Source: a virus
IMG/VR virus record: IMGVR_UViG_3300045922_000134
Coordinates: 1-25,541 of that record
DNA length: 25,541 bases
Strand: one strand, 5' to 3'
Of the stretch, positions 635 to 6,679 are shown piece by piece (positions within the stretch are counted from its first letter, which is position 1; each line of letters begins with the position of its first letter). The position numbers and the translations under genes are program-made. The notes beneath the pieces are model-generated. The model was not told the DNA's origin, searched no databases, and saw nothing but the letters and a program-made list of their open reading frames with translations.

Positions 635-3600
635 TCACACCTTTGGCCGAAGGTCCATGCGGGGTTTCTTTTCCGGCCCCGCAAGCGCCTCAATAAACGC
701 TTCCCTGTCAGACGGCAAATTGCCACCCTTCTTGGTGCCGCTGGCAACGACAATCGGTGCGGCGACAGGCGCTCTCAGGTAGGAAACAGCAAGCGCGTCC
801 ATGGCAGGCTCGACAATCAGATCGTAGAGAGCGCCGGCAGCCGCCCGCTCCGCCGTATTGGTATCAGGAGAATTGTTGACAAACAGGCCCGCCGCCTTCC
901 TGGCGCCCTCTGACAGTGATCCGACAACGGAACCGGACAGGCTCTCAAGCACGGAACGCTGATACCGGACAGAAAAGATGGCGTTCACAAGCGGAGACGC
1001 AGCCGCCAGCAATCCCGAGTAGTCAAGCAGCCGCACCATTTCCGTCAGCGGGTCCTCCTCCTCATCCCGATTGGTCCCGAACAGCGCCATCCTGCTTTCC
1101 AGCACCACCTTTGACGCCATCAGAAGTGCCGGCAGCCCCACCGCGACGGGCGCCAGCATCATCGGATCACGCTCCTGCATCGCGCCCTTCGCAAGCCTTC
1201 CCCACCGGTTCAGAATCCGGCTCTTGAACGCATAGAGGAAAGACATGAGGCCATAGAACAGACTGCCGACCGGATGAGAGGCATAGACAGGCCGCTGCAC
1301 CCTGCTTGGCGCAAGCGCCACATCATTGGCGAACCGGAATACTGCCTTCACAAACTCCTCTTCCTCTTTCGCCATGCGGAAGGGATCGTGCGCTTTCGGC
1401 GGCGCCTTGGAGCCAATGTCCTGCGACCGGACCCATTTGGCAAACGCATCCACATCGGACACTCCAAGTTCCCGGAGATAGCGCGCCGCCCTTTTGGCCG
1501 TTGTGCCGCTCTCGTTCAAATCGTCCACCAGTTCGCGGATGAACCGCGCTCCCGCCCTGGTCGCGGCAGTCCGCGCCGCCTCGTTCAGTTGCGTCTGCAA
1601 TGTCGCCTTGTAGAACTTGCGCGAAATCCTCTGCCCGGCTTCCGACAGGTTTTCAGCCGACAGCCTAGCTTGCAGATTCTGCTCGAATGTATCCACCACA
1701 ACCGTGCCGATAGCGCGGGCATAGCGCTTCCACTCGCTTTCCGGCAGGCCGCGGAGATTGCGGGCAAACTCCATCATTCCGTTGAGAACCGCGCGCAGGC
1801 CCTGTGCGACACTGCCCGTCCTGACAAAGCCCTGTGCCAGATCAAGAAGGTTTGCCATCACCGCGCGGTCGAGCTTCCCGACCTGGTTCCAGACATGCAG
1901 CAGGGACACGGCCTCGCTCGTTGCGTGGGACACATCGGTGCCAAGAAGGCCAAGGTTCGAGCGGATGATTTTGTCCACGAACCCAAGCGCGTCCCGCGAC
2001 TTCTCGGCTGGAATGTCGGCTGCCAGAAGGTCCTCGGCAATCCGGTCCTGGAACACCTCAAGCTGCGTGAGATTGCCGTGCTTCTGTTGCCACTGCCGGC
2101 GCTCCTTTGAGCCTTCTTCGCCCTTCATCCCGAACCGGCGGGTATATTCAGCCCGGCGCGCCGATCCGATGATGTAGGACGACAGCACCTTGAAGGCGTC
2201 TTTTTCATAGAAGTCCGCAAGGATTGCATCGGCGGCCTTGAACAGTTCCCGGCTTCTGGCGCTGGCGCTTGCCGGCGTCCGCGGAGTTCGGATTGCCAAA
2301 AGGCCGCCATCGACGCCCGCGTGCTCACGGACAATCATCTGAAACCACCGCTCGGCAGCCCCGGCAGGGTCCTCGACACCCATGCGGCGGTAAACCTTCT
2401 CGGCAGCCTTCTTGAACTCGGCAGCGCGCCGGACAACCTCTTCGAGATTGAGAACGCGCGGGAAGTAGGAGTCGACAAGGCCAATATCCTCACCGGCCTC
2501 CCTGCGATATTTGTGAATGTCCCTGAGCAGCGCCTTGAGCCTGTCAGCTATGTCCTTGACTTCGGGATCGGCAGCCGCGCCCTTCTCTGCCACCAGCGCG
2601 TCCCTGACCTTTTCAAGAAACGCCTCATCGTTCACCCGATCACCGAGAATGTCAGACATTGCGTTCAGGTTGGTCCTCGAAGTCCGCGACACTGCCTCGT
2701 GATATGTCTCCCCGACCCGCCTGTCGGAGCCGGGCACATCCGAGAACATGTCTGCGATCTCCCGAATCGCGTCCGACTTCAATTCGCGCGCCAGTGCCCG
2801 CAGCCTTGCATCGTTTGAGAAAGTCAGAACCCCGATGCCATAGGAAACCCGGTCAACAAGGGCGCCAAGAACAGAAGCAACGCTGGTGCGGCCATCGCCC
2901 TTCATGAGCTTGCCAAGCCGGTCCACGGACTCCCGGTCCACAATCGCGTCGAGCACGGCATTGATACGCCTGTCTATGTCTGGAGGACCCTTGGAAAAGG
3001 ACGTTTTGCCCAACCTCCTGTTAATTCCGGCAAACCGCAGACGACCTGCCCGGTTTTCGTCAATGTCCGACACGATCCGGAAGGCCGCATTGGCCGCGTC
3101 CAGAACCTCATCGAGCGCAGTGCGGATTTTGTCAGTCGGCTTTTTTCCCGGAAACAGGACGCCGCTGACAGCCTCCACAAACCTGTTCCAGATCGAGCCG
3201 TTCCTTGTCCGGTCAACAGCGGACGGGATGACATTGCCGTCCAGGTCCATGGAGTTGAGCAGGGCCTGGAAGGCGGGGTTGGTCATGACATGGGCAATGA
3301 CCTCCTCAATGTCTGTGGTGGCAATGTTGATTATTTCGGATACAGCCCCGGCGGCATCCATGAATTGCGGGTTTTTCCGCGCGTCGGCCTGCAACTTTTG
3401 CACAAGCGCTTGCAGCCTCTTGAGCACATTCTCCAGATTGTCGATTGCGGCGGCCTCGGCTTTTGTGAGTTCGCCGCTTTTGCGCAATCCTCTTCTGAAA
3501 CTCTCAAGAGAACCGAGCTTGAGGCCGATGACGGCATGGATCGTCTCATGGAGAACGGTCTCGACTGAAAGACCGCCAACGCCTCCTGCGGTGTTCAGTT

Positions 3601-6600
3601 CGATTACAAACGCAACGGCGGGCCTGCCATCCGCATTGAACCCGGCCTGCTTTCTGGTGAGTCCCTTTACGCCCGCTTCTTTCTCATCGCCGCGAACCGG
3701 GATTGGCAGATTGCCAACAATGTCCAGAAGCCTCTTGGCAAGGACGCGGTAGAACGGGTTATTGCTCTTCTCGGCGATGTAGGACAGCATCGCCCGCAGC
3801 CGCTCATCCTCACCCTTTTCCTTGAAGATTCTGACAATCTCGGGGTCGTTGAACGCTGGGTTCCAGCGGAGGTTTTCGAAATTGTCCCTCCACATTTCGA
3901 TAAGGGACCTCCAGAATCCCTTTTGCCCAACGGCTACTTTTTCTGTGGCTTCTTCGCTCTGGCTTTCGCTTCTTTCAGCATCCGCGCGATCATTCTCCGG
4001 CGGTCGGTTCGCATCCTCGGGTCGGTTTCCTCGTCCGCCAGCTTCCGGTTCGCCTCTGCCAGAAGTTCCTCCGGTGTCATTTGCGTCTCCTCTGGTTGGT
4101 CCAGTGCCGGCATCCTGCCCTTCGGCAGTGCTTGGCCGCGCCTTCGGAGCCTCCTGTTCTGGCTGTGGTGACGGACCGCTGCGTTGCGGAGGCTCACGGG
4201 AGGATTGCGGCCCGCCGCTATCTGTTTGCCCGGTTTCGGGGCGATTGCCAACACCGCTTCCACCTCCACCCGGCGGGGGCGGTGGCGGAGGTGGCGGCGG
4301 GGGAGTGTCATCGCCCGGCGGTGGCGGTGGTGCATCGGGTCCCGGCCCGCCGCTGTCGGTTCCGCCCGCCTGCTTTCTCGGATTCCTCTTGGCGACATAA
4401 CCGTCCGATCCCCAGGTCGCGGGCTCAAAATCGCCAGCAAGCCGGTTCTTGACCAGCCATTTGGCAAGCTCCCGCAGGTCTTTCCACACGGCTGGCTTGC
4501 CGGATTTGCCGGCAACATACTCCCCATCGTCGGTCGTGCGCCATGTCCTATCGGCGTTCTGTTCAGGCGCCGAGTCGCTTCCGCCGTAGCGGCTTTCCGG
4601 TCGCGGCCCCTGTTGCTGCCCTGCGCCTTGGGAACGCCCGCCCGCCTGCTCTCTGGAACGGCGCTCTTCTTCTGCCCTTCTCGCCCGCTCTGCGGCTTCT
4701 GCCCTTTCGCGTGCCCGAAAACGTCGAATAAGGTCCTCGACCTCGGCTTCTGCCGCGGCTTCCCGCATGCGCTCGCGCGCGTCCTGTGCCTGCTGCTCCC
4801 GCGCCCTTGCTGCCTCCCGTTCCGCACGCCGCATTTCCTCGCGTCGGGCGGCAGTAAGAGGCCCGGTATCGGTGGCCTGATTGGAGGGTTGCGCCGCTCC
4901 ACGCGCGGCCCGCGCCTTGTCCGGACTGAGGCCCCTTGCCCCACTTGGCATTGGGCCGGTCGGGCTGATCTCGCCTGTCAGAACGCCATAGGCACGAATC
5001 TTGTCCTCGACAGGGATGTTGCTGTCCAGAATGTCCTGCACGAGCGGGTCGTCCACCGCTGCCCGGCGCATGTTCCGGAGTTGCTCCTTCTGAAACTGGC
5101 GATACCGGTCCAGCCCGGCTCGATTGCCGGGGGTATTTTCCATGATCCCCTCTGGCTGTGCCGTGAAGTCCGGCTGGCCTGCGTCCGGCTCTGCGGAACG
5201 CATCCGCTGTTCAGCGGCACGCCTTGCGGACTCTGCTGCCCACTCGCGGGCAGTGGCCTGCCACGCCGGGCTGTCAGGATCGCCAAGGGAAAGATATTCT
5301 TGGTAATATCGCTCTTCCAGTTCAGCCTGTTCCTCGGCTGCCATTGGCCGTGCATCTTCCGGCCCAGCCGCGGCGGACGCTCTTGGGTCCGTGTCGCCAA
5401 GCTCGATTGCGTCGGCTTCCTTTTGCTGCCGCTCCCGCTCCTTTTCCGCCCGGCGCACCCGTGCCTCGTTGCGCTTGCGGATGTCCCTGATCTCCACATC
5501 CGAGGCGCCTTCCGGGATTTGCTCAAGCTCCTCCCGTGGCACCTGCCTTCTCGCCCGCGCCTGTTGGATGCGTTGAGCGATTGCCTCCGGATCGGAAAAG
5601 GAGTCCGGGTCGGCGCCAGCGCTCTCGATGATCCTCCTGATCTCCTGGGCGCGTTCGCCGCCGTCTGCCACCTCATTGATCGCAGCGTCGCGGATGTCCT
5701 CGTCGGTTGCGTTCTCCGGCAGCCGGGTTGCCTTCCGCAAAGCGGAAAGCACTTCCATGTCCAGCGGCGCCATGAGCGCGCCGATGGTGAACGCGATAAA
5801 CCGGTCGCCTCCCGTAGTGCGCTCCCCAAGCGCCCTTGCTCCCGCCTCCTCTGTCGCGATCTCGCCGGCGCCCTGAATCCCCATCTGTGCCAAGACGTTG
5901 CCGGCAAACCTCGGGGCAGCTTTCCTGCCCACGCCAGCGCCGAACGGGCGAAAGGGAAGAGCGGCGCCGAAAGCGCCTGCCACAGGTGCGCTCGCAGCCG
6001 TCCGGATCGCCGCCTTCCTGACAGCCTCATCGACGGACTCACCCTCATTGACCCTGTTGGACACCTCGGACGGCAGTCCAAGGCCAATCTCTGCACCGGC
6101 GCCAATGCCGGCACCAGTAAGGTAGGGCGCGGCCTTGCTGGCAATCCCTGCCGGGAGTCTCGACTTAACAAGGCCAGACAGAGCGCGGCCACCGAGCCCG
6201 CCACCAACAACCGCGCCGGGCGCCAGTTCGATCAGAAGTTCAGCCACGGCACCGGGGTTGCGGGCCAGAACCCCGCCGCCAGCCGCAATGCCGGGAAGCA
6301 CGCCGGGCGCCTCCTCGAACGCCTTGCCAGCCTCCTCAATCGCAGGGTTTTGGGGGCGCGACTTCTGGCTGGCAGCCGTGGAGCGGATTGCATCCGCCAT
6401 CATGTCCGCAAGGCCGGGACCTTCCACGCCAACAGCGCGCCCGGCCTCCTGACCTGCCCGAAGCGCCGCATAGACAGGAATGTCGCGCAGGAGCTTGAGA
6501 TTGGCGACGCCGCGATTGAAAGCGTCCCAGGCACGCTCCATGAACGGCCTGTCCGCGGATGCCGATGCCTCAGGAAGCGACGCGACAACGGGCGCCTGTT

Positions 6601-6679
6601 GCCATGCCGCGCCCGAGGAAGGCGGCGCGACAGGGGGCGCCTGTTGCCACAAGGGCTTCTTGGAATTGGCTTCCGCCAT
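635..6679 (-). CDS. Giant polyvalent/ejected virion protein (2014 aa) with zincin metallopeptidase motif
   Basis: Likely internal virion protein delivered with the DNA. The N-terminus has two WQQAP motifs (residues 11-15 and 26-30), then a Gly/Ala-rich hydrophobic region (about 130-320) and charged, coiled-coil-prone Arg/Glu stretches (about 370-520 and 600-700). A proline-rich linker (784-803, with 11 prolines in a row at 793-803) runs into a disordered Gly/Glu/Arg segment to about 920. Next comes VLHETIHAVIG with His1044, Glu1045 and His1048, an HEXXH zinc site. EEVIAHVMTNPAFQ at about 1125-1138 could supply a third Glu ligand. The C-terminal third is helical with hydrophobic segments near 1850-1930, resembling the C-terminal associated domains of large polyvalent proteins (possibly LPD38, by eye only). 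It sits between two virion-type genes and the lysozyme, where ejection proteins usually lie. Its start overlaps the upstream stop (TGATG). Proteolytic activity is inferred, not shown. Confidence 0.82.
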   Translation of the reverse strand: MAEANSKKPLWQQAPPVAPPSSGAAWQQAPVVASLPEASASADRPFMERAWDAFNRGVANLKLLRDIPVYAALRAGQEAGRAVGVEGPGLADMMADAIRSTAASQKSRPQNPAIEEAGKAFEEAPGVLPGIAAGGGVLARNPGAVAELLIELAPGAVVGGGLGGRALSGLVKSRLPAGIASKAAPYLTGAGIGAGAEIGLGLPSEVSNRVNEGESVDEAVRKAAIRTAASAPVAGAFGAALPFRPFGAGVGRKAAPRFAGNVLAQMGIQGAGEIATEEAGARALGERTTGGDRFIAFTIGALMAPLDMEVLSALRKATRLPENATDEDIRDAAINEVADGGERAQEIRRIIESAGADPDSFSDPEAIAQRIQQARARRQVPREELEQIPEGASDVEIRDIRKRNEARVRRAEKERERQQKEADAIELGDTDPRASAAAGPEDARPMAAEEQAELEERYYQEYLSLGDPDSPAWQATAREWAAESARRAAEQRMRSAEPDAGQPDFTAQPEGIMENTPGNRAGLDRYRQFQKEQLRNMRRAAVDDPLVQDILDSNIPVEDKIRAYGVLTGEISPTGPMPSGARGLSPDKARAARGAAQPSNQATDTGPLTAARREEMRRAEREAARAREQQAQDARERMREAAAEAEVEDLIRRFRARERAEAAERARRAEEERRSREQAGGRSQGAGQQQGPRPESRYGGSDSAPEQNADRTWRTTDDGEYVAGKSGKPAVWKDLRELAKWLVKNRLAGDFEPATWGSDGYVAKRNPRKQAGGTDSGGPGPDAPPPPPGDDTPPPPPPPPPPPGGGGSGVGNRPETGQTDSGGPQSSREPPQRSGPSPQPEQEAPKARPSTAEGQDAGTGPTRGDANDTGGTSGRGEPEAGGRGNRPEDANRPPENDRADAERSESQSEEATEKVAVGQKGFWRSLIEMWRDNFENLRWNPAFNDPEIVRIFKEKGEDERLRAMLSYIAEKSNNPFYRVLAKRLLDIVGNLPIPVRGDEKEAGVKGLTRKQAGFNADGRPAVAFVIELNTAGGVGGLSVETVLHETIHAVIGLKLGSLESFRRGLRKSGELTKAEAAAIDNLENVLKRLQALVQKLQADARKNPQFMDAAGAVSEIINIATTDIEEVIAHVMTNPAFQALLNSMDLDGNVIPSAVDRTRNGSIWNRFVEAVSGVLFPGKKPTDKIRTALDEVLDAANAAFRIVSDIDENRAGRLRFAGINRRLGKTSFSKGPPDIDRRINAVLDAIVDRESVDRLGKLMKGDGRTSVASVLGALVDRVSYGIGVLTFSNDARLRALARELKSDAIREIADMFSDVPGSDRRVGETYHEAVSRTSRTNLNAMSDILGDRVNDEAFLEKVRDALVAEKGAAADPEVKDIADRLKALLRDIHKYRREAGEDIGLVDSYFPRVLNLEEVVRRAAEFKKAAEKVYRRMGVEDPAGAAERWFQMIVREHAGVDGGLLAIRTPRTPASASARSRELFKAADAILADFYEKDAFKVLSSYIIGSARRAEYTRRFGMKGEEGSKERRQWQQKHGNLTQLEVFQDRIAEDLLAADIPAEKSRDALGFVDKIIRSNLGLLGTDVSHATSEAVSLLHVWNQVGKLDRAVMANLLDLAQGFVRTGSVAQGLRAVLNGMMEFARNLRGLPESEWKRYARAIGTVVVDTFEQNLQARLSAENLSEAGQRISRKFYKATLQTQLNEAARTAATRAGARFIRELVDDLNESGTTAKRAARYLRELGVSDVDAFAKWVRSQDIGSKAPPKAHDPFRMAKEEEEFVKAVFRFANDVALAPSRVQRPVYASHPVGSLFYGLMSFLYAFKSRILNRWGRLAKGAMQERDPMMLAPVAVGLPALLMASKVVLESRMALFGTNRDEEEDPLTEMVRLLDYSGLLAAASPLVNAIFSVRYQRSVLESLSGSVVGSLSEGARKAAGLFVNNSPDTNTAERAAAGALYDLIVEPAMDALAVSYLRAPVAAPIVVASGTKKGGNLPSDREAFIEALAGPEKKPRMDLRPKV
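3934..4080 (-). CDS. Candidate nested small gene, 48 aa, out of frame inside the giant gene
   Basis: An ATG at 4080-4078, in another frame of the same strand as the giant gene, opens 48 codons ending in TAG at 3934. GAGGAG (4092-4087) lies 6 nt upstream, an excellent ribosome-binding site made in the host frame by the AGA and GGA codons. The product begins MTPEELLAEANRKL and ends KARAKKPQKK. It is charged and probably helical, with an acidic N-terminal half and a basic tail. In the hand-read first 20 codons about 15 end in G or C, whereas in the overlapped host frame about 10 of 24 do. The host frame here encodes a disordered linker that could tolerate overprinting. No homologue is recognised. 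Chance cannot be excluded in GC-rich DNA. Confidence 0.45.
   Translation of the reverse strand: MTPEELLAEANRKLADEETDPRMRTDRRRMIARMLKEAKARAKKPQKK
4087..4092 (-). promoter_or_regulatory. Internal Shine-Dalgarno GAGGAG for the nested ORF
   Basis: GAGGAG on the minus strand, 6 nt before the ATG at 4080. It lies inside the coding frame of the giant protein, where it is built from AGA and GGA, codons that should be uncommon in DNA this rich in G/C at third positions. Confidence 0.5.

Follow-up and report, generated by a model that had tools for sequence, protein, structure and literature searches.

The linker of the giant virion/ejection protein encoded in the window, a 25.5-kb virus record, probably contains a small overprinted gene. 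This interpretation is favoured because two related phages carry, in their homologous giant genes, +1-frame ORFs that are equal to each other in length, begin with an ATG behind a Shine-Dalgarno (SD) sequence, and lie on the most synonymously constrained stretch of those genes. On this reading, the window ORF itself would be translated.

Genomic setting and anatomy of the nested ORF

The minus strand of the window carries a podovirus-like structural block that includes the giant gene (Table 1). Amino acids 1268-1827 of the giant protein match the virion structural family phrog_30152, and matches to proteins from several phages also fall in its C-terminal part. The segment aa 960-1279 shows resemblance to portions of N4-like virion RNA polymerases (vRNAP) and of DarB-like proteins. 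The linker is followed by a zincin-like module with an HETIH motif; the middle domain of the relatives is different. A candidate in-frame start lies at aa 929; initiation there would yield a C-terminal product that starts with the zincin-like module.

Table 1. Positions of the giant gene, the nested ORF and associated features in the window.
Feature	Position	Strand	Remarks
Structural block		-	terminase-like, portal, major capsid, nozzle-position and ejection proteins, then giant gene, then endolysin
Host gene, giant virion/ejection protein	635..6679	-	2014 aa
Hydrophobic-poor linker containing the nested ORF	3932..4372	-	aa 770-916; GC3 reduced throughout
Candidate nested gene	3934..4080	-	48 aa; +1 frame of giant; ATG at 4080; TAG stop
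SD-like sequence GAGGAG	4087..4092	-	6-nt spacer to ATG; SD scan
Longer alternative form	3934..4113	-	59 aa; upstream in-frame ATG at 4113; weaker AAGG, 5-nt spacer
Zincin-like module	2900..3930	-	after linker
Candidate internal start of giant	3893..3911	-	GGAGGT about 11 nt before ATG of aa 929 (ATG at 3895)

The preliminary description reported a 48-codon ORF that starts 6 nt after GAGGAG in a frame other than that of the 2014-aa gene, and this was confirmed from the sequence. Its codon counts were reproduced exactly: among the first 20 nested codons, 15 end in G/C, and among the first 24 main-frame codons, 10 do. The predicted 48-aa product is MTPEELLAEANRKLADEETDPRMRTDRRRMIARMLKEAKARAKKPQKK. 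The peak of the coding score begins at aa 857-863 of the giant, slightly upstream of the ATG at 4080. An open frame with a start and a ribosome-binding site within another gene, as expected of an overprinted gene, is present here, though such a combination arises frequently by chance in this linker.

Compositional effects within the window

Composition by itself cannot decide whether the nested ORF is a gene. A stop in the +1 frame is possible only where a main-frame codon has T as its second base, and the linker contains no V, L, I, M or F residue until V915, whose GTA codon supplies the T and A that, with the following G, form the nested TAG. The nested frame is therefore open over its length because the linker has no codon with T at position 2, and this holds for every synonymous recoding. 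Similarly, the third positions of nested codons are the first positions of main-frame codons, and GC-ending nested codons are expected because GC1 is 0.69 across the giant gene. The open length and the GC-ending codons, which were originally offered as arguments for a gene, are thus correct as facts and fail as arguments, since both follow from linker composition.

These observations bear on the alternative that takes most of the probability outside an overprinted gene, namely that the ORF is a product of chance and that nothing is translated from it. On this account, which is unlikely although it deserves serious weight, the Gly/Arg/Glu/Asp/Asn linker forces the +1 frame open, codons for Arg-Gly-Glu/Asp produce GAGGAG, and the A/T third bases that come with relaxed codon use make the +1 frame look coding-like. 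In addition to the forced openness and the identity of nested GC3 with main-frame GC1, it is supported by linker shuffles that preserve the amino acids, 40% of which create an SD-ATG ORF of at least 40 codons; the SD-ATG start, too, fails as an argument for a gene. Across the giant gene, an SD sequence precedes 3 of the 54 ATGs in alternative frames.

Main-frame GC3 in the window departs from chance expectation. In the overlap, G/C-ending codons number 21 of 49 against 35.8 expected (z = -4.7), the lowest value in the window. The drop noted in the preliminary description is thus real, but it is found throughout the linker, including upstream of the ORF (z = -2.4 and -3.4), and is also seen in ORF-free linkers, including those of a Microcystis phage (z = -6.7) and linker 1 of one of the relatives (L021, z = -5.7). 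The Microcystis phage, Mae-Yong1326-1 (L003, 9328-16653), encodes a 2442-aa protein with Pro/Ala-rich linkers at aa 284-430 in a gene whose GC3 is 0.92. Its linkers give positive, coding-like +1 scores although they have no usable start, again as expected if such scores arise by chance. GC3 depression and codon log-likelihood were therefore rejected as stand-alone proof, as both are seen in linkers without ORFs.

Among 4,027 alternative-frame windows, the top +1-frame scores all fall over the ORF and the codons just upstream. Relative to linker-wide shuffles, its score is unexceptional when all window genes are used for training (P = 0.11) and exceptional with another training set (P = 0.005). 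The +1-frame score peaks at the nested ORF in all three giants (that of the window and those of two relatives), where it exceeds same-amino-acid linker shuffles with P = 0.005, 0.035 and 0.05.

Giant genes of related phages

Scans with the window giant, nozzle-position, portal and zincin-like segments returned no relatives, whereas a capsid-protein scan identified relatives with 51-55% identical capsids. A homologous giant gene is present in three of the five relative records: G002 (L020) and G003/G004 (L021). These represent two different protein sequences, 1841 and 1831 aa long, which are 71% identical to each other and 32% identical to the window giant. A close relative of the window phage itself was not found, and constraint was measured on the ORFs of the relatives only.

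The L020 and L021 giants each hold a 62-codon, ATG-initiated ORF in the +1 frame of a hydrophobic-poor linker, preceded by AGGAG (spacer 6) or GGAGG (spacer 9); the products are MSGLRKLKHATPDQLAKMKAVRDDPSEDPTKRADAGLLLKMHSSLNGKATSATPSNGEPTNL and MGGLKRLRHATPEQVAKMKAVRDDPNETAEKRTDADLLLKMHSSLNGKPTSETPSSDEPTSD. In L020 this is the sole SD-ATG alternative ORF of at least 30 codons, which argues against a chance origin, as does the fact that the two equal-length ORFs occupy the part of their giants under the strongest synonymous constraint. Linker 1 of the same two giants (approximately aa 640-760) serves as an internal control. It is AT3-rich (z = -3.2 in L020 and -5.7 in L021) and contains no SD-ATG ORF of at least 30 codons, and its third positions diverge to a typical extent (23-27 of 50). 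Low GC3 in a linker of these giants is thus not in itself accompanied by the constraint seen over the ORF, which likewise weighs against chance.

Synonymous constraint between the relatives

The preliminary description proposed a comparison of synonymous variation among homologous giant genes. Made between L020 and L021, this comparison shows the ORF to be the most constrained stretch of the gene. Excess synonymous constraint of the host frame is present over the overlap in these two relatives, with a dS of 0.26 against 0.75 elsewhere in the giant. Fourfold sites differ at 3 of 28 positions in the ORF and at 312 of 759 elsewhere (Fisher P = 6e-4). In a composition-corrected scan, the least divergent of 1,598 windows starts at aa 943, one residue from the ORF start at 942, and the best constrained segment (aa 944-988) falls inside the ORF; when the gene-wide scan is assessed by site shuffle, P = 0.12.

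The nested products of L020 and L021 are identical at 44 of 62 positions, against 30.9 +/- 3.4 expected from simulations built on main-frame protein change and gene-wide synonymous rates; none of 5,000 simulations reached this value, and the excess has the top z among 264 windows. Conservation is raised in the +2 frame nearly as much as in the +1 frame (z = 4.5 versus 4.8). This similarity and the site-shuffle result leave room for a short recombination tract. Compared with random placement of the same substitutions, changes in the nested frame lean towards conservative ones (P = 0.064, a weak tendency), with exchanges that include R/K, D/E and L/V, whereas main-frame changes do not (P = 0.60). 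The earlier proposal that the nested frame is the selected one is weakly consistent with this pattern, but the reasons first given for it do not carry it.

Instead of a coding overlap, the constrained stretch in the relatives could be an element at the DNA or RNA level, or a tract that recombined recently, with the window ORF unrelated to it. The similar rise in both alternative frames agrees with this, as does the low overall divergence (30 substitutions in 64 codons), and a comparably low synonymous divergence is seen at aa 1719-1785 of the same giants, where no ORF is known. Several observations make this explanation improbable. No stable RNA fold was found over the overlap (z about 0.1, -0.4 and 0.1), the constrained segment lies within the ORF, and main-frame amino-acid identity over the stretch is approximately 0.75, the average for the gene, so that the tract is not simply younger. 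The second stretch, at approximately aa 1719-1785, lacks an SD-ATG alternative ORF and possibly reflects recombination.

Comparison of the window ORF with the ORFs of the relatives

Alignment of the nested protein of the window with those of the relatives gives P = 0.06-0.24, depending on the form and the null used, and is not significant. The main-frame linkers align beyond shuffles for the window and L020 (P = 0.003) but not for L021 (P = 0.36). In single-sequence predictions, the window product forms a helical hairpin (helices 3-17 and 21-43, mean pLDDT 83.5), as does the product of a relative (helices 12-23 and 29-46), and in both helix 1 begins at a TPE motif. Hairpins in both are expected because the sequences are charged and helix-prone. 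A helical-hairpin fold is thus predicted for the nested product, and orthology of the window ORF with those of the relatives is plausible.

The giant protein is modular, and its middle domain differs between the window and the relatives. The nested ORFs also sit at different points in the domain order, ahead of the zincin-like module in the window and ahead of the conserved C-terminal part in the relatives, which counts against their homology. In a further alternative, the nested ORF is what is left of an independent small gene that lay between two others and was caught out of frame when these fused into the giant. Such a history would fit the variable middle domain and the fact that the ORF stops only a few codons short of the folded zincin-like module and is followed by an internal ATG of the giant's frame, at aa 929, with GAGGT. 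It is nevertheless very improbable, as no phage was found in which the module stands as its own gene behind a small gene of this sort, and no comparable in-frame start closely follows the nested stop in L020, while L021 has only a GTG at aa 1092.

Wider searches for homologues

No comparable ORF is present in the distant giants of Mae-Yong1326-1, Aeromonas phage phiA008 or Pseudomonas phage BroderSalsa, all of which retain the C-terminal part of the giant. Across the wider group, therefore, the giant does not always carry the nested frame. Loss of the frame or of its start signals in homologues that keep the giant protein had been named in the preliminary description as evidence against the gene. 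This applies in part: the distant homologues keep the C-terminal part without a comparable ORF, while L020 and L021 have an SD-ATG ORF. Frame, start and ribosome-binding site thus have analogues in these two giants and none in the more distant ones, and window-relative orthology is not statistically significant.

The suggested search of the 48-aa sequence against phage proteins yielded no relatives in phage records, PHROGs or Pfam. No family, sequence relative or significant fold relative of the nested products was found in the databases searched, and a profile of the relatives' ORFs detected no free-standing copy in any fetched locus. A 44% match in L001 was attributed to chance; it falls in an N-terminal region, coiled-coil-like in character, of an ORF of 1421 aa resembling a tape-measure protein. 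Two Chryseobacterium matches (L028 and L029, 36%) are likewise chance by score and lie inside longer open frames. The L021 ORF model resembles, by Foldseek, the DUF2786 domain of a Bacillus phage SP-15 protein as a helical hairpin over 41 columns, at a non-significant E of 0.36 and 12% identity that make no claim of membership. Membership in DUF2786 was rejected, as there was no Pfam family match at E up to 5.

Relation to known systems and significance

An overprinted gene in this position would be of a known kind, comparable to lambda Rz1 in Rz, and would encode a protein family without a known database counterpart. Rz1 is nested in the +1 frame of Rz, the two forming embedded two-component spanins (PMC6139136). 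As in that case, a small phage gene would lie entirely within another in the +1 frame, a class that annotation programs usually miss (PMC6139136). In contrast, Rz1 is a lipoprotein of the outer membrane that belongs to the lysis cassette and is the partner of its host gene's product, whereas the ORF described here is found within the gene for a virion protein. The 48-aa sequence is charged and contains no lipobox, membrane segment, Cys, hydrophobic segment or signal, and is thus not an Rz1-like spanin. In curated sets, it is an established pattern that disorder-promoting residues are abundant in the products of overprinted genes or of their hosts (PMC8227390, PMC6195259). The nested frame similarly occupies a stretch that is rich in such residues and tolerant of double coding, but here the comparison comprises one sequence and two relatives only.

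If the overprinted gene is real, it would be embedded where a podovirus's giant ejection protein has a disordered linker, and would be expressed by internal initiation on the late structural mRNA at GAGGAG-6-ATG. The product would be a two-helix protein of 48 aa (possibly 59 aa) in the +1 frame, while the main frame would read the same bases as a tolerant Gly/Arg/Glu linker. As a guess made with low confidence, it may be an accessory protein, such as an assembly or folding helper, made with the ejection-protein module and acting on it.

A broader reading is more tentative, its odds falling somewhat short of even: that giants of this podovirus group carry an overprinted gene for a two-helix protein in an interdomain linker, that the family is new to current databases, and that the linker is shaped by the hidden gene and not by the virion protein. 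The locus offers a compact, testable case of overprinting and shows how linker composition predisposes one frame to openness. If the gene is confirmed, the late structural transcripts of this phage group would encode an unannotated small protein that is invisible to gene callers, and this would explain why some disordered linkers of giant virion proteins stay conserved.
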